Translations under genes and position numbers: made by a program
Part shown: positions 2,452 through 30,828 of the stretch, piece after piece
How positions within the stretch are numbered: the first letter of the stretch is position 1
Layout of the letters: the number at the start of each line of letters is the position of its first letter
Notes under the pieces: model-generated
Seen by the model: the letters and a program-made list of their open reading frames with translations, nothing else
Told to the model about the DNA's origin: nothing
Databases searched by the model: none
DNA from: Candidatus Methanomethylophilaceae archaeon
GTDB lineage: Archaea; Thermoplasmatota; Thermoplasmata; Methanomassiliicoccales; Methanomethylophilaceae
Assembly: GCA_017540825.1 (NCBI GenBank)
Contig: JAFYAH010000039.1
Coordinates: forward strand, 1-33,818
DNA: 33,818 bases
Direction of reading: 5' to 3'

Positions 2452-3270
2452 ATGACGCAGGACGTCCTGGTGGTCGCATGCGGAGGCGCCGGCTGCAACG
2501 TGTTCTCCGAGGCGGAGAGCGTCCTGGAGTGCCCCGTGATGCTCTTGAACTCGAACAGCAGCAGCTCCATCCGGCTTGCTCCGGAAGGGATGGACGGCTG
2601 CCGCGGGGATCCCGGTTTGGCGTTCTCCATAGCCTTCGAGAACATGGACGCGATAAAGGAGGCTTTCAAAGGGTTCCGCGCGGTTGTCGTCTTCACCATC
2701 CTGGGCGGCGGGACCGGAACAGGGATGGTCCCGATAATACTCCAGTGCGCGGTGGAATGCGGCTGCCGCACCATATCCGTCATGGGCCTCCCGATGTCCC
2801 TGGAGACGGAGAGGCGCGCCCTGGCGCAGGAGTCCCTCGCCGAGATATCGGGGCTCTCCGACCGTATGTACCTCCTGGACGAGGACGCGGTCATCAGCAT
2901 GTGCCCGGACACGAAGGCGCATAGCATCTTCAGGATGATATCCCACTCCATACTCTTCACTGTGAAATGCATCGTGGACCTCCTCTCGGGCCCTTTCTTC
3001 GCCACTTTCTTCGACAAGGTGTACACCTTCGCCTACGTTTCCGAGCTGAGCCCGGTGAAAGCGGTCGAGAAGGCGGTGAATTCGTCGGTGCCCACCGTGG
3101 TCGACCCCATCGGGAGGATCGTGGTGGCCGTGAGTTCGGAGATGGGGAGCGTCGAATTCGACGCGATATACGAGAAGGTGGCGGAGATGACGGGGGTGGT
3201 CCCCGACATAGTCCGCAGGAACGACAGGGAGGACACTAAGATGGTCGTGTTCTTCTCGGTCTGGAGCCGA
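2452..3270 (+). CDS. Divergent FtsZ/tubulin-like protein, ends at CGA
   Basis: A 272-aa tubulin/FtsZ superfamily protein. Residues 11-16 are GGAGCN and 85-92 are GGGTGTGM, the nucleotide-binding glycine loops. The region equivalent to the T7 loop (about 182-190, PFFATFFDKV) lacks the Asn-x-Asp-x-x-Asp pattern that completes the GTPase site, so nucleotide binding without normal hydrolysis is likely. It is shorter than cell-division FtsZ (about 350 aa) and is probably an accessory cytoskeletal paralogue. GAGGGAGGG lies just before the ATG. The last beta strand (TKMVVFFSVWS) is followed by CGA at 3268-3270, the first CGA in the frame. With the standard code the frame would stay open to 4149, entirely antisense to the next gene. 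I take CGA as the stop. Confidence 0.75.
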
Positions 3271-3273
3271 TCG
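3268..3273. other. Back-to-back CGA stop codons of two convergent genes (CGATCG)
   Basis: The palindrome CGATCG provides CGA on the plus strand (3268-3270, end of the FtsZ-like gene) and CGA on the minus strand (3273-3271, end of the methyltransferase gene). Neither gene has another CGA upstream, and neither has a TAA, TAG or TGA near here. The two genes then end exactly back to back with no overlap. Confidence 0.8.
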
Positions 3274-12615: not shown

Positions 12616-14229
12616 TCGCTCGAACGACACCAGGCTTCTCAGACCTTCGATCACGGAAGGGTCGTCTATCGCTCTCTTCATATCCTCGAGGTCTTCGAAA
12701 GGCCTCTCGAGCACGAGCTTCGCAGCCCTCTTCTTGCCGATCCCGGGCAGAGCCTCCAGGGCCGAGAGAGGCATCGAGTTTATTTTGAACGGCAATTCCA
12801 CGCCTGTTATCGAGCGGAATCCCCATCCTGTTATGAAGACGTCGCAGAACCTCTCCGTATCCATCCTGTACGGGACTCCGACGAGGAGGGGGTAGGAGCC
12901 GATCTGCCTCCCGAACGTGATGTTCCCGTCGTTGAGCTCCATGTACACGTCTTTCAGGACGGTCCCGTAGGGGACGATGCGCTCCAGCATGGCGCGGTCT
13001 ATCTCCTCGCGGACGCTGTCCTTGAACTTCCTGAACGTCCTCTGGTCCACCCTGGTCTTGAACTCCCTCCTGACCGGGAGGACCTGGCGGATGTTTATGC
13101 GCCTCACCATCAGGCCCTCGTCGCGGACCTTCCTGAGGAAGTCGAGGTCCATGGAGTACGTGGACTTCGTCTCTCCGTCCAGGCCGCAGATTATGTTGAT
13201 CCCGGGGAGCAGCCTGGGCATCCCCCTCTCGCCCCTCTCCCTCCCGACGTCGTTGATCGTCCTGACCGCTTCGAGGACCTGCTCGGAGGTGCTGTTCAGG
13301 TTGTTCTCCAGGACCACCCTCGGGTCGACGGACTCCATTCCCAGCGCCAGGACGTTGCCGTCGGTGCAGTTCCTGGCTATGCTCTCCAGCACCTTGCGGG
13401 ACTCCTCCGGGTAGGTCGCTATCACGGCGGCGTTGGCGTTGTCCACGTGCACGGTGTCGAACTCCAAGGCGCGCAGACCGGAGAACAGCCTCTCGGCGGC
13501 TTCGGGATTCGGCCTGGGGACGGGGGAGTCGTCGAGGGAGCCGTACGAGACGATGCAGGTCTGCCCTCCGACCCTGACGTTCCTGACTCCTAGGTCTTTG
13601 AGCTTCCTGGCTTCGGCGAGGACGTCGTCGGGAGATCTAGTCAGGGGCTTGCCCTTCAAGGCCTCTATGCAGTACGAGCACCCTCCTGTCGAGTACCTGT
13701 GGCACCCGCGGTACGTCTCTATCTCGGCGACTAGGGGCTCCGGGAAGTCCTGGTGCTGCTTCACTATGTCGGCCCCCAGGAGCATCCAGCGGTTCCATTC
13801 GTCTAATGTGCGGAGCCTCTCCCCGACCTCCTTCCCAGTCATCCCGTCGTAGAGCGAAGCGGCCAGGTCCTTCCTGACGACGAAGTCGAAGCCCTCGGCC
13901 TCCACGGTGTCCGCAGCGGATCCGCCTATCATCCGCCAGCCCTTCAGCTTCGGGAATATGCCGCGGAGCTCCTTGGACGACATCGGCATGGAGCGGAGGT
14001 ACTTGCCAGGGACGGTGTTCCCGGATAAGACTATAGTGACTGACGCGTCCGGGATCTCCTTCCCTTGGCGTATCATGTCTATGGAGACGTATTCGACCTT
14101 GTCCGCCCCCGCGTCCAGCGCCGCCCCGGCTATGGAGCGTATCATCGGTGATATGTATGGGGGAACCCCCAGGGCGGCCGGGTCGTCGATGTAGCCGTCG
14201 ATGAGGGCGATGGTGATCTCGTTCTCCAT
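12616..14229 (-). CDS. Radical SAM protein with C-terminal helix-hairpin-helix, ends at CGA
   Basis: A 537-aa archaeal radical SAM enzyme of unknown reaction. The cluster cysteines are C176, C184 and C187 (YRGCHRYSTGGCSYC), a CX7CX2C spacing instead of CX3CX2C, as in one archaeal subfamily. The radical SAM barrel follows (VRNVRVGGQTC, DTVHVDNANAAV, LPGINIICGLDGET). The last 60 residues hold a helix-hairpin-helix (ALEALPGIGKKRAAKLV), pointing to nucleic acid binding. It stops at CGA 12618-12616 after SLVSFE. I read all 537 codons and found no other CGA. With the standard code it would run to 11908 through the next gene. TTTATATCC about 25 nt before the ATG is a leaderless-type promoter. Confidence 0.85.
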
Positions 14230-25775: not shown

Positions 25776-26663
25776 GTGAAGATACAAGCCGACTGCGTCC
25801 CGTGCCTCATGAAACGCGTGCTCTTCCAAGCTAGGCTGGACGGGCGCGCAGACGAACTCGCCTCCGTCGACGCGGGGCTGAAGGCCCTCGCCGCCAATAT
25901 CGATCCCTGCAAGGCTACGACGGACGTCTCCACCGCTGTCCACGAGGCCGCCTATTCCAAGCTCCCCACGGACGACCCATACAGGGAGATGAAGGCCCGT
26001 GCGGACAGGATCGCCGACGGCTTGTCATCGCGCGCCCAGAGCTTCGTGGACTCCTCCGAGGACAGGCTCCGCGCAGCCCTCCTGGTCTCGGCGGTCGGGA
26101 ACATAATGGACTTCGGCTCCGCCGCGCAGGCCGTCGACAGCCCCGAGGAGTTCGAGGCGATGTTCGACGACCTGATCGCCCAAGGGCTCGGCCTATACGA
26201 CGAGGGGAGGATAGGCTCTCTGCTGGCAGGCGCCGAGAGGGTCGTCTACTTCTTCGACAACTGCGGCGAGTCGCAGCTGGACAGGGTGCTGATAAGGGAG
26301 CTCCGCAGGAGAGGGAAGCGCGTCACCGGCGTGGTCCGCGGAAAGAGCATCCTGAACGACGTGACCAGGGAGGACGCCGAGAGGTCCGGCCTGGGCTACG
26401 ATCTGGACGAGATCGTGGACACGGGCGGGTTCTACGTCGGCGTGGACTGGTCGCACCTCCCGAAGCCCCTGGAGGACGCCCTTTCAGGGTCCGACCTAGT
26501 CATAATGAAGGGGATGGCCAACTACGAGTGCACGTCCGAGGTGTCCCTTCCCGTCCCGGTCATCCACGTTCTCCGCGCGAAGTGCCTCCCGGTGTCCAGG
26601 TCCATAGGGGTCCCCCAGGGCACCAACGCGGTCTTCGCGGTCCTCGACGGGAGGAGGATGCGA
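25776..26663 (+). CDS. DUF89/ARMT1-like metal-dependent phosphatase, ends CGA-TGA
   Basis: A 295-aa protein of the DUF89 family, metal-dependent phosphatases thought to remove damaged or side-product phosphometabolites. Seen: CVPCLMKRVLFQARL at the N-terminus, AALLVSAVGNIMDFGS, the metal-site segments FFDNCGESQLDRVLI (Asp-Asn) and LVIMKGMANYECTSE, and IHVLRAKCLPVSRSIGVP. GTG 25776 is the only start that keeps the conserved N-terminus. The frame ends ATG CGA TGA: CGA at 26661-26663, TGA at 26664-26666. If CGA is the stop, it overlaps the next ATG as CGATG, like the TGATG overlap at 7080. It is translationally coupled to the nucleotidyltransferase. Confidence 0.85.
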
Positions 26664-27676
26664 TGAAGGCCCGCCAGGCGGTGATAATGGTCGGCGGGAA
26701 AGGCACCAGGCTCCGCCCCCTCACCGAGACCTGCCCCAAGCCGGTGCTGCCGGTCGCGGGGAAGCCCTGCATCTGGTACCTGATGAGGTCCATGGCCAGG
26801 GCGGGGGTGGAGGAGATAATCCTCGCCTGCGGGTACCGCTCGGAGATGATAGAGCAGGCTCTCGGGGACGGCAGCGACCTGGGCGTCAGGATAACGTACA
26901 CTTACGAGGACGAGCCCAGGGGCACCGGCGGGGCTCTGAAGCTCATAGAGGGCATGCTGGACCCCGTCTTCATTGCTTCGAACGGCGACGTCTTCGCCGA
27001 CATAGACCTGGACGGCCAGGTCGCTCGCCACCTCGAGACGGGGGCGGACGTCACGGTCGCGCTCACTCCAGTCCCCAACCCCTGGGAGTTCGGGGTCGCC
27101 CGCATAGCGGATGACGGGTCCATATCCGAGTTCAGAGAGGGCCTGAAGCCGGGGCAGACGTTCTCCGACCTGATAAACGCAGGCGTGTACGTCGTCGACA
27201 AGAAGGTGCTCGCCGGGATCCCGGAGGGCAGGTTCTACGACTTCTCCAAGGAGCTCTTCCCGAAGATCATAGCCGAAGGCGGCAAGCTGATGGGGTTCCC
27301 GCTGTCCGGGACGTGGATGGACGTGGGTAGGCCGTCAGACTACCTCAAGGCGAACCTGCACGTCGCTTCGGGGAAGGGGAGCGAGGGCGCCGTGGAGCGG
27401 AGCTCCCTCCAGGGTCGCGTCTTCGTCGGAAAGGGCGCCGCGGTTTCGGAATCGGAGCTGTCCGACTCCGTGGTCATGGAGGGCGCCTCGGTGCGCGGCT
27501 CCCGTCTCTCTCGTGCGGTGGTCCTGCCTGGGAGCAAAGTGGAGGGATCCGAGGTCCGGGACAGCATAATCGGGTCGGGATGCGTAGTCGAAGGGGCCGT
27601 GGTGAGGAACTCGGTCCTCGGCGAGGGCGAGGCCGTCAGGCCGGGAGAGGTCAGGGACGACGGGCGCAAGGTCCGA
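26663..27676 (+). CDS. Sugar-1-phosphate nucleotidyltransferase (HddC-like), ends at CGA
   Basis: A 337-aa enzyme with the nucleotidyltransferase core and a left-handed beta-helix tail. VIMVGGKGTRLRPLTETCPKPVLPVAGKP is the nucleotide-binding and catalytic loop, FIASNGDVFADID the sugar/metal Asp, SGTWMDVGRPSDYLKAN the C-terminal mark of the core; from about 230 onward the hexapeptide repeats (VMEGASVRGSRLSRAVVLPGSKVEGSEVRDSIIGSGCVV) follow. With hddA, gmhA and gmhB nearby, transfer of GMP to D-glycero-D-manno-heptose 1-phosphate is the best guess; mannose- or glucose-1-phosphate are alternatives. The frame ends at CGA 27674-27676 after DDGRKV. With the standard code it would run antisense through the GT2 gene to 27880. 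GGGAGGAGG lies just upstream of the ATG. Confidence 0.82.
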
Positions 27677-27681
27677 GGTCG
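27674..27681. other. Second pair of facing CGA stop codons (convergent genes)
   Basis: Plus-strand CGA at 27674-27676 ends the nucleotidyltransferase and minus-strand CGA at 27681-27679 ends the glycosyltransferase. Only 2 nt lie between them. Neither strand has another stop codon near here. Confidence 0.8.
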
Positions 27682-28566
27682 CACCTTCTTGGTGCTCTCC
27701 ACGGGGTCCCAGACGCTCATGTCAGCGTTGCCCTCCTCGACGAACCTCCTGGCTGCGGAGCGAGCTTTCAGCTCCATCCTGGCGGCGTATGCGAACTTGA
27801 ACGGGTGGAATCCCAGGTCGCGGAAGGCTCCGAACGCCGCCTTGACGACCCACCAGGTGTTCCAGGAGGGGTCCGCATAGCCCTGCCTCTTCTTCATGAA
27901 GCATTCGCCGATGTTTATGCGCGTCCTCTGCTTGAGGAAGTCCTCCTCCGTCTCGGGGCCCCTTATGCTCACCGTGGCCTCCGGGACGTACACGCACCTG
28001 TATCCCGCCCGCTCCATGTGCATCCTAAGCAGCGGCTCGTCGGCCTGCTGGTCCTCGGGAAGGCGGACGACTATGTCGCGGAAGGCGATCAGCTCGCCCA
28101 GCTTCGGGCAGAACCGGGAGATGTTGTGGTGCATGGACCAGATGACGTGGTCGGCGAACCCCACCTTGCTGCCCTTGTCGTTGGTGGGGATGGGGCGCCC
28201 GCCTGTCATCCCGACGTCGTCGTCGCGGAACGGCTCGAGGAGGCTGCGCAGCGAGTCTTCGGACGAGAGGATGCTGTCGGCGTTAAGCATGACCGCTATG
28301 CCGCAGGTCTTGGCGTCCAGGAACGCGTTGATCGCAGAGTTCTTGCCCTCTCTGCTCTCCTGGCGGATCAGGGCGATCTCGTTGTGCTCCTTCTGCAGAG
28401 AGCGGACTATGTCGTCCGTGCCGTCCGTGCTCCCGCTGGAGACGACGATCACCTCCTTCACGCGGAAGCGGCCCGTGCGCTGAGAAAAGACGGAGCGGAT
28501 GCTCCTCCCGATGCTGCGCGCCTCGTTGTACGCGCAAATCCCCACGGCCACCTCCTCGGGTTTCAT
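27679..28566 (-). CDS. Family 2 glycosyltransferase, ends at CGA
   Basis: A 295-aa GT2 enzyme (GT-A fold) that transfers a sugar from an activated donor. VAVGICAYNEARSIGRSIRSVF is the nucleotide site, SSGSTDGTDDIVRSLQ and LNADSILSSEDSLRSLLEPF hold the metal-binding DxD-type region (NADS here), and DQQADEPLLRMHMERAGY the catalytic part. It may have a short hydrophobic C-terminal region but no clear membrane helix. I prefer ATG 28566 (MKPEEVAVG) to ATG 28590 because TTTTTAAG lies about 30 nt upstream of it. The frame ends at CGA 27681-27679 after DPVESTKKV. All 295 codons were read and contain no other CGA; with the standard code it would extend to 27340. Confidence 0.85.
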
Positions 28567-28771
28567 CTGCTTCCAGGCCCATCCCGTCATGTCTTAAAAA
28601 CTGTGCCACGACCGTGCCATCGGACGGCGATGGCCGTGATTGTCGAACGAAAGCGTTATCCTCTTTGTACATCTATATATATCTGAATCTCGTAGCCCCG
28701 CACGTTTCAGTCGTCGCGGGACAAGGTCGGTTCGATGGTACGAATCTCTTCGGCCGACGGAAGGTGAATTG
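28567..28771. promoter_or_regulatory. Divergent promoters of GT2 and the heptose operon
   Basis: On the minus strand the GT2 TATA-like TTTTTAAG is at 28596-28603. On the plus strand CTATATATATC at 28673-28683 is a strong box A; the leader before the ATG at 28772 is about 65 nt and ends in GGAAGGTGA, a good ribosome binding site. Confidence 0.55.
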
Positions 28772-29788
28772 ATGGATGGGGTACACTACAGGGCAAGGGC
28801 ACCTTTAAGAATAGGACTGGCGGGCGGAGGCACCGACGTCGATCCTTACGCCACGGAGAAGGGCGGAATCGTTCTCAACACCACTATAAACAGGTACGCC
28901 TATTGCACGATTCGCCCCACCGACGACGGCATCGCGTTCGTACATTCCCAGGAGAACGGCGACTCCGTAGCCAACCTAGGGGACGGGCCGCTCAAGCTCA
29001 ACAAGAACGAGCTCGCGGAGGTCGTCGCCAACCATTTCGGCATCAAGGACGGGTTCTCGATGGACCTCCATTCCGAGGCTCCTCCCGGATCCGGGCTCGG
29101 CGGCTCCTCCACCGTCATCGTCTCCATCATCTCCGCCGTCTGCAAATGGAGAGGCTGCGAGATGTCCGGCATGGACATGGCCAAGCTCGCCTACCATCTC
29201 GAGAGGAAGGAGCTGGGCCTCAAGGGAGGGCGCCAGGACCAGTACGCCGCCGTCTTCGGCGGATTCAACCTGATGAGGTTCAACGGCGACGACGTCGCGG
29301 TGGACCCGGTCCACGTCAGCCAGGACGTCATCAACGAGCTCCAGGCCCGCACGCTCCTCTGCTACACCGGCACCACCCGCGAGTCCGCCGACATCATCGA
29401 GTCCCAGGTCGACGCCTTCAAGAAAGGCGACAACGAGAGGGCGCTGGACGAGTCCAAGAGGATCGCCGTGGACATGGCGAAGGCCCTCGGGAGCGGGGAC
29501 ATAGACGAGGCGGGCAGGCTCCTGCACACCTCCTGGCAGTACAAGAAGCAGTTCTCCAGCAAGATTACCAACCCTCTCATAGACGCCATGTACAACAAGG
29601 CCATCGAGGCGGGCGCCATAGGGGGCAAGGTCTCGGGCGCGGGAGGGGGCGGATTCATGTTCTTCATCTGCGACTGCAATAGCAAGTATAATGTGGCGAA
29701 AGCCATTACGGATGCCAACAAGAAGGCCATCGTCAAGGATTTCATGTTCGAGCCTGGCGGCGTGACTTCTTGGAGGTACCCCAAATGA
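28772..29788 (+). CDS. hddA: D-glycero-alpha-D-manno-heptose-7-phosphate kinase (HddA-type GHMP kinase)
   Basis: A 338-aa GHMP kinase. RARAPLRIGLAGGGTDVDPYATEKGGIVLNTTI is the HddA-type N-terminus; PPGSGLGGSSTVIV (about residues 108-121) is the ATP loop; SGAGGGGFMFFI is the third motif. HddA phosphorylates heptose 7-phosphate at C1 on the way to GDP-heptose. It is followed by gmhA with ATGA overlap, so the genes are coupled. GGAAGGTGA precedes the ATG. Stop TGA, no CGA codons. Assignment to heptose rather than another GHMP sugar rests on the gene context. Confidence 0.85.
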   Translation: MDGVHYRARAPLRIGLAGGGTDVDPYATEKGGIVLNTTINRYAYCTIRPTDDGIAFVHSQENGDSVANLGDGPLKLNKNELAEVVANHFGIKDGFSMDLHSEAPPGSGLGGSSTVIVSIISAVCKWRGCEMSGMDMAKLAYHLERKELGLKGGRQDQYAAVFGGFNLMRFNGDDVAVDPVHVSQDVINELQARTLLCYTGTTRESADIIESQVDAFKKGDNERALDESKRIAVDMAKALGSGDIDEAGRLLHTSWQYKKQFSSKITNPLIDAMYNKAIEAGAIGGKVSGAGGGGFMFFICDCNSKYNVAKAITDANKKAIVKDFMFEPGGVTSWRYPK

Positions 29789-30339
29789 CAGATTCCATAC
29801 AAGACGAGCTGTCCAGGAGCTCCAGCATCATATCCCGCATAGAGCCTGCCAGGATACGCGCGGCCGCCGACGTCCTGATAGAGGCCTTCAAGAACGGCAA
29901 CCAGGCCATCTTCATGGGGAACGGAGGCTCCTCCGCCGACGCCCAGCACATCGCCGCGGAGTTCTCCGGAAGGTATCTCGTGGACCGCCCCGCCCTGCCG
30001 GGGGTCTGCCTCTCCAACATCGCCCCCGTGACCGCCATAGGGAACGACTACAGCTTCAGCATAGTGTTCAAGAGGCAGATAGAGGCCATCTGCCGCAGAG
30101 GGGACGTGGCCGTCTGCTATTCGACGTCCGGGAACTCCGAGAACGTCATCCTCGCAGCGGAGGAGGCCCATGCCCGCGGCGCCAAGGTGATATCCTTCAC
30201 AGGGGACTGCGGGAAGCTCAGGGACATCGCGGACGTGGCGGTGATCATCCCCACCAAGGAGACCCCGCGCGTGCAGGAGGGATACCTCTGCGCGTCCCAC
30301 ATCGTATGCGGCATAGTAGAGCGGGAGCTGTTCGGCAGC
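29785..30339 (+). CDS. gmhA: Phosphoheptose isomerase GmhA (SIS domain), ends at CGA
   Basis: A 184-aa SIS-domain isomerase that turns sedoheptulose 7-phosphate into D-glycero-D-manno-heptose 7-phosphate. Seen: FMGNGGSSADAQHIAAEFSGRYLVDRPALP (substrate phosphate site), VCYSTSGNSENVILAAEEA and the C-terminal helix SHIVCGIVERELF. The length (184 aa) is that of normal free GmhA. A CGA at 30337-30339 sits right at the end of that helix and directly before the HAD domain. With the standard code the two would be one 364-aa fusion. I annotate two proteins but readthrough is possible because no good start for the HAD part follows. Confidence 0.78.
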
Positions 30340-30828
30340 CGAGCCGTCTTCGTGGACAGGGACGACACGCTCGCCCCCAACGTCCCGTACTGCAGCGACC
30401 CCGACCTCTTCGTCCCGTACGACGACGTCCCGAGGGGAATAGCCAGGCTGAAGGAGGCGGGCTTCCTGGTCATAGTGGTGACCAACCAGTCCGGGCTCGG
30501 GCGCGGGTACTTCGACGAGCACACTCTGTCGTCCATCCATTCCAAGCTGTTCAAGGTCGTGGAGGCCGGCGGAGGCCGCATAGACGACGTGTTCTACTGC
30601 CCTCACCGCCCGGACGAGGGGTGCGGATGCCGCAAGCCCCGCACAGGCATGGGGGCGGCCGCTGTCAGGAAGCACTCAATCAACCCTTTCCAGTCGTACA
30701 TGGTCGGAGACTCTGACGCCGACATGGAGTTCGGCCGCCACATGGGGTGCAAGACGTTCCGCGTCGGGAAGGGCGTCACGTTCTCAGACGCGGTTGATTT
30801 CATACTGGATGATGCAAGGCCTCGCCGA
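30340..30828 (+). CDS. gmhB: HAD-family heptose bisphosphatase GmhB, ends at CGA
   Basis: A HAD-IIIA phosphatase of about 163 aa that removes the C7 phosphate from heptose 1,7-bisphosphate. AVFVDRDDTLAPN is the nucleophile motif (DxD), VVTNQSGLGRGYF motif II, the zinc loop CPHRPDEGCGCRKP and MVGDSDADMEFG the last motif. The end VDFILDDARPR is followed by CGA (30826-30828); the standard frame continues 16 codons of no family sequence. The beginning is uncertain: the only start after the CGA at 30337 is GTG 30352, which removes the first beta strand (AVFV). Either it starts there or it is made as a readthrough fusion with GmhA. Coordinates here cover the whole domain. Confidence 0.78.

Follow-up and report, generated by a model that had tools for sequence, protein, structure and literature searches.

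In one genus of gut methanogens, host-associated Methanomethylophilaceae, the arginine codon CGA has most probably turned into a leaky stop, and the CGA located between the GmhA and GmhB domains of a single reading frame would be a conserved instance of this change, with termination yielding GmhA and read-through by arginine insertion yielding a GmhA-GmhB fusion. Judging from sequence comparison, the probability of this reading is put at roughly 0.77. An earlier note on this DNA had offered two explanations for the junction, a programmed CGA read-through giving both GmhA and the fusion, or a non-standard restart of translation. The former is now the best-supported reading, given that CGA serves as a stop in this genome, that CGA or TAG is retained at the junction, that the downstream frame is devoid of a start codon and that the gene of the release factor aRF1 has an in-frame CGA; the latter is not supported. 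The junction CGA matters because CGA acts as a stop in this genome, a premise that was absent from the note and proved right.

The gmhA-gmhB gene and its surroundings

The window, that is, the whole stretch of DNA that was analysed, is contig JAFYAH010000039.1 (33,818 nt) of assembly GCA_017540825.1, from a Candidatus Methanomethylophilaceae archaeon whose genome is designated G000. The features of interest are as follows.

3268-3273, both strands: CGATCG palindrome, the stop of two convergent genes with no spacing, namely a tubulin/FtsZ-family (CetZ-like) gene on the plus strand (CGA 3268-3270) and a SpoU/TrmJ-like methyltransferase gene on the minus strand (CGA 3273-3271); orthologues in genome G018 end there
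12616-12618, minus strand: CGA stop of a radical-SAM gene
26661-26663, plus strand: CGA ending the ORF 25776-26663; the following gene's ATG overlaps it (CGATG, replacing the usual TGATG)
26663-27676, plus strand: sugar-1-phosphate nucleotidylyltransferase (HddC/GlmU-like) with CGA 27674-27676 as its stop; the CGA stop of the gene upstream overlaps its ATG
27679-28590, minus strand: glycosyltransferase family 2, ending on CGA 27681-27679
28772-29788, plus strand: hddA-like D-glycero-D-manno-heptose 7-phosphate kinase (NF049969 5e-85, below the curated cut-off); its TGA stop overlaps the gmhA ATG (ATGA)
29785-30339, plus strand: gmhA, phosphoheptose/sedoheptulose-7-P isomerase with SIS domain, 185 codons to the CGA (Pfam SIS_2 3e-24; TIGR00441 5e-48; PDB 2xbl aligned to residue 185)
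30340-30342, plus strand: CGA between the GmhA and GmhB parts, a putative leaky stop (CGA in 17 species, TAG in 2)
30343-30825, plus strand: GmhB/HAD-IIIA phosphatase domain, in frame, with no canonical start at its beginning (NF006506 1e-42 from the first residue; TIGR01656 above cut-off; PDB 4pnh/3l8h/2gmw)
30352-30354, plus strand: GTG, the sole start-like codon near the junction, residue 190; as a start it is not conserved (codon comparison, AlphaFold model)
30826-30828, plus strand: second CGA, which closes the GmhA-GmhB frame and where orthologues end (TGA in G029/G026); the next standard stop is TAA 30874-30876

The frame thus runs from ATG 29785 through CGA 30340 and CGA 30826 to TAA 30874, and with translation table 11 gmhA-gmhB forms a single open ORF. 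The junction codon had been placed one codon too early, at 30337-30339, which is AGC (Ser185); the CGA occupies 30340-30342. With this correction, the boundary falls exactly at the CGA, as had been claimed: GmhA extends through residue 185 and the GmhB/HAD phosphatase domain starts at residue 187, the alignment to PDB structures covers residues 21-185 for GmhA chains and begins at 186/187 for those of GmhB, and the NCBIfam gmhA model ends, and the GmhB model begins, at this same point. The HAD frame is indeed open after the CGA and follows with no linker: in an AlphaFold model of the whole fusion (mean pLDDT 83), the last GmhA helix spans residues 160-183 and the HAD domain opens with a strand at residues 187-190. 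The first ATG, GTG or TTG past the CGA is, as also anticipated, GTG 30352, which corresponds to the last residue of that strand, so that a start there would delete the first HAD strand.

Scores for the two domains fall under the curated equivalog cut-offs (163 bits against 209.45 for gmhA, TIGR00441; 145.4 bits against 178 for GmhB, NF006506), with GmhB scoring above the cut-offs of the broader TIGR01656 and TIGR01662 models; the two parts work like these families and are not certified as their members. Together with the HddA-like kinase and the nucleotidylyltransferase they probably constitute a GDP-heptose pathway, as suggested by the families to which the genes are related. Throughout the window, conserved genes lack CGA in their bodies, and the codon occurs at their ends instead.

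CGA at gene ends in the genome and its relatives

Orthologues were used to fix gene ends in 825 kb of G000 and in samples of its relatives, whose records are labelled Methanomethylophilaceae, Methanomassiliicoccaceae or Thermoplasmata archaea and come partly from rumen or deer. Nearly all these genomes are metagenome assemblies, that of G000 being 96% complete with 3% contamination. Among the 137 ends fixed in this way in G000, TGA was found at 85, TAA at 11 and TAG at 6, and 35 were without a standard stop. A CGA stood at the end in 25 of these 35 genes, equivalent to about 24 distinct ones (two sampled pieces overlap, one gene being seen twice), and several of the other overruns resemble antisense alignments.

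A line of evidence independent of orthologues was provided by a best-frame coding-potential scan of the 825 kb, used in place of a first search for interior CGA that had been flooded by shadow frames; an ORF-coverage test in which a codon was made a stop was uninformative, as GC-rich antisense frames stay open. Since the scan counts positions repeatedly near ends, its numbers serve for the contrast between codons only: CGA occurred 5 times in coding interiors versus 195 at coding ends, with corresponding figures of 2905 versus 289 for CGC and 23 versus 378 for TGA. Three of the five interior CGA (L085:16163, L268:5442 and L274:7586) appear to be stops behind which the following gene lies in the same frame, and the other two are those of gmhA-gmhB and of the aRF1 gene. 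By these comparisons, CGA behaves as a stop codon in G000, where it ends about one gene in six beside TGA, TAA and TAG.

At L268:5442, the CGA is preceded by an N-terminal domain of unknown type and followed by a frame resembling 3-methyladenine DNA glycosylase, with a GTG three codons on; this site represents either a stop with restart or another leaky fusion.

Elsewhere in the genus, CGA-ended genes were found among the orthologue-fixed ends of G029 (6 of 24), G021 (6 of 28) and G028 (3 of 24). No such gene held up in the samples of G014, G007, G018, G020 and G010, the single G007 case looking antisense, meaning that the use of CGA as a stop in these genomes rests on CGA avoidance and on aRF1. 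Regarding the former, interior CGA was restricted to gmhAB and aRF1 in 280 kb of G014 and to aRF1 in 200 kb of G007.

Two other explanations can be confronted with these data. The first is that transcripts suffer C-to-U editing at gene ends, converting CGA to UGA, with CGA itself not being recognised as a stop. The two codons are a single C-to-U change apart and TGA is the dominant stop, but editing leaves the disappearance of CGA from coding interiors unexplained and we know of no such mRNA editing in archaea, making this possibility extremely improbable. The second takes CGA as an ordinary, very rare arginine codon and gmhA-gmhB as a plain fusion in which CGA would be kept either to slow the ribosome between the two domains or simply by descent. 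The openness of the ORF in table 11 and the persistence of tRNA-Arg(UCG) speak in its favour; however, it fits poorly with a codon that stands at the orthologue stops of about 24 of 137 G000 genes and in the interior of only two, and the junction in related species, considered below, also bears on it.

The junction codon in related species

The same junction, which the note had proposed to look for in relatives, was indeed found there. Of the 25 genus genomes that have the genes, 17 carry CGA as the junction codon, and in two others the CGA is displaced within 1-7 codons of the junction: G005 has it one codon earlier, together with another CGA in the DRD motif, and G010 has AAG (Lys) at the junction and CGA six codons on, in the DRD motif. 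TAG occupies the position in G020 and G028. Replacement by an ordinary arginine codon in all close relatives, which had been named as evidence against the proposal, was looked for and not found, G006 being the only genome with such a codon (AGA, giving a plain fusion), while G010 carries the lysine codon just mentioned. Finally, in G003, G012 and G011, gmhA ends on TAA and gmhB starts in another frame on an ATG or TTG located 8 nt upstream (L118:13630-13680, L119 and L120), indicating that the fusion is not essential everywhere. A stop-type codon at or near the junction of the 22 genus species with GmhB in frame is therefore CGA in 17, TAG in 2 and CGA within 7 codons in 2, bearing in mind that species share ancestry and that such counts do not represent independent events. 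In other genera and families, the junction has AAA or AAG (Lys) within a plain gmhA-gmhB fusion.

The choice of codon at this position appears to be conserved more than chance would allow. In the 17 species, eight alignment columns of GmhAB are all arginine; the junction column has CGA in 17 of 17 and the other seven have none in 119 codons. Furthermore, synonymous sites adjoining the junction are free to vary, contrary to the CGA itself. The exchange of CGA for TAG, for TAA plus restart or for a nearby CGA means that termination near the junction has been kept. This is hard to accommodate if CGA were just a rare arginine codon: the Lys fusions of other genera and the AGA of G006 agree with that idea, but TAG in two species and TAA with restart in three point to termination as the favoured event, and the constancy of CGA amid freely varying synonymous sites adds to the difficulty. 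Overall, the rare-codon explanation is regarded as improbable.

Of 31 genus genomes, 27 have a pylS gene scoring above cut-off, among them the two with TAG at the junction. The 825 kb of G000 contain about 20 TAG codons within strongly coding sequence (loci L078-L282), and many ordinary genes of this genome seem to have TAG translated as pyrrolysine. From the presence of pylS and of these interior codons it follows that a junction TAG would be read as Pyl, not Arg.

No conserved GmhB start codon was observed among the genus species with GmhB in frame, the valine codon two positions after the CGA being GTG, GTC, GTA or GTT according to species and the position of GTG 30352 having ATC, ATA, GTC or GTA elsewhere. 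The retention of the GmhB frame with no start codon means that read-through has been kept as well. These observations bear directly on the possibility that CGA is an absolute stop separating two proteins, with GmhB restarting at a non-standard codon (the CGA itself, GCC or GTG 30352). The role of CGA as a stop in G000 and the existence of separate genes in three species are in agreement with it. Nevertheless, there is no start conserved past the CGA, the GTG would remove the first HAD strand, the species with separate genes resort to a normal ATG or TTG in a frame overlapping the TAA, and a restart would not require the GmhB frame to be kept. In addition, the aRF1 gene, presumably an essential one, has an internal CGA that must be read through. 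An absolute stop is thus considered quite unlikely, and the non-standard restart of the earlier note found no support.

In the preferred reading, that of a conserved leaky stop, one feature of the junction is unfavourable: the base 3' of the CGA is G and not the C of a leaky context. A stimulating RNA structure was also considered and set aside, as sliding-window consensus folding of the whole gmhA-gmhB gene revealed no conserved peak near the junction.

Release factor, arginine tRNA and the proposed leaky stop

The aRF1 gene of G000 (L074:5681-6877, corresponding to G000:C72:25681-26877; TIGR03676, 534 bits) has a single in-frame CGA, at L074:5882. In 24 of 25 genus genomes CGA is the codon at this conserved arginine (SAIDSIAA-R-LKTFK), the exception being G028, which has CGC and forms the deepest genus branch in a FastTree phylogeny of the aRF1 gene. 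The other 17 all-arginine columns of aRF1 contain no CGA among 408 codons in the 24 genomes. The context of the codon is equally constant (T-CGA-CT), with the preceding base always T even though the residue there is Ala or Ser, and the following base always C. Other genera have AGG, AGA, CGC, CGG or CGT at the position, with one CGA (G045) in a gene having several. The presence of CGA inside a presumably essential gene implies that it can be translated at some level, and lends indirect support to the proposed recognition of CGA by aRF1. Changes in the factor itself offer no clear explanation for such recognition, since most species retain the stop-recognition motif NIKS (G001 has NIRS), with small genus-level changes beside it.

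On the decoding side, tRNA-Arg(UCG) persists in G000 with a damaged anticodon arm (genus loci L067/L162, L318:19887-19960 and L340-L347). A mismatch (A.A or C.A) replaces the 31-39 pair in G000 and most of the genus, and most of one subclade has C33, together with a 27-43 mismatch, in place of U33, a position where U is near-universal in tRNAs. The arms are intact in other genera. A BLAST and a pattern search first pointed to loss of the tRNA from 14 genomes, a conclusion withdrawn when most of them proved to carry diverged copies, in several cases with C33. No copy was seen in the incomplete assemblies G013, G016, G017 and G028. The remaining arginine codons are covered by tRNA-Arg(GCG), -(CCG), -(UCU) and -(CCU), and superwobble by tRNA-Arg(UCG) in compensation for a missing GCG tRNA was rejected, tRNA-Arg(GCG) being present in most regions examined. 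With tRNA-Arg(UCG) present in G000, CGA could be partly sense. Four-base-pair anticodon stems change stop read-through in other systems (PMC13092985), meaning that the effect of the damage in tRNA-Arg(UCG) may go in either direction.

The most likely course of events would be that CGA first turned rare, that its tRNA was then weakened, and that the release factor took over CGA as a near-UGA codon. At the gmhA-gmhB junction, termination, presumably through aRF1, would give the 185-residue isomerase GmhA. Read-through, most likely with arginine (probably Arg186) delivered by the crippled tRNA-Arg(UCG), would give a 347-residue bifunctional GmhA-GmhB ending at the second CGA. The leak may have been kept where it is useful, that is, in aRF1, where slow termination would allow full-length factor to be made, and in gmhAB, which would supply the isomerase alone and the isomerase-phosphatase. 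A more specific version, in which CGA is a true fourth stop read by aRF1, the crippled tRNA acts as a weak suppressor, and the leak is used by exactly aRF1 (for autoregulation) and gmhA-gmhB, is held to be rather probable.

The aRF1 site likely represents a release-factor autoregulation resembling that of bacterial RF2, whose gene prfB carries an internal in-frame UGA followed by C (PMC5009743). As in prfB, what would be a stop lies early in the aRF1 gene at a very conserved site, with C as the next base (almost always so in prfB). In contrast, the stop is CGA, the factor is the archaeal aRF1, and the expected event is in-frame read-through, with the frame unchanged and no +1 frameshift encountered. 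The gmhA-gmhB junction is in turn comparable to programmed stop-codon read-through, given the conserved in-frame extension after the stop and the two products expected from one gene. It departs from such cases because the stop is CGA, and because the TAG that takes its place in two pylS-bearing species is expected to insert Pyl, not Arg.

Reassignment from sense to stop has been described in mitochondria, for example for UCA in sphaeroplealean green algae (PMC6821328). The situation described here is similar in that the former sense codon is gone from coding interiors and present at gene ends. It differs in concerning a cellular archaeal genome with 53-62% GC and an arginine codon one transition away from UGA, in the persistence of a damaged cognate tRNA and in the two genes that keep the codon internally. 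The parts of Shulgina and Eddy 2021 (PMC8629427) considered here describe CGA/CGG to Trp in Absconditabacteria, CGG to Gln or Trp in Bacillota and AGG to Met, cases in which, as here, rare arginine codons (CGA/CGG) change meaning in prokaryotes. Those changes are bacterial and sense-to-sense, unlike the archaeal, sense-to-stop change proposed here, of which the same parts of that work report no case. No report of CGA as an archaeal stop was found in searches of the open-access literature.

Stop-to-sense and sense-to-sense changes of the genetic code are known in cellular genomes. To our knowledge, a sense codon turned stop is known in organelles only, and CGA in this genus would be the first in a cellular genome. 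If true, and with TAG as pyrrolysine, one codon would have moved each way between sense and stop. The ambiguous stage of a codon would also become directly testable, as a damaged tRNA, a release factor with an internal CGA and close species using or not using CGA as a stop are all at hand. For these gut methanogens, it would mean that standard annotation over-extends many genes, about one in six of the checkable ends in G000.
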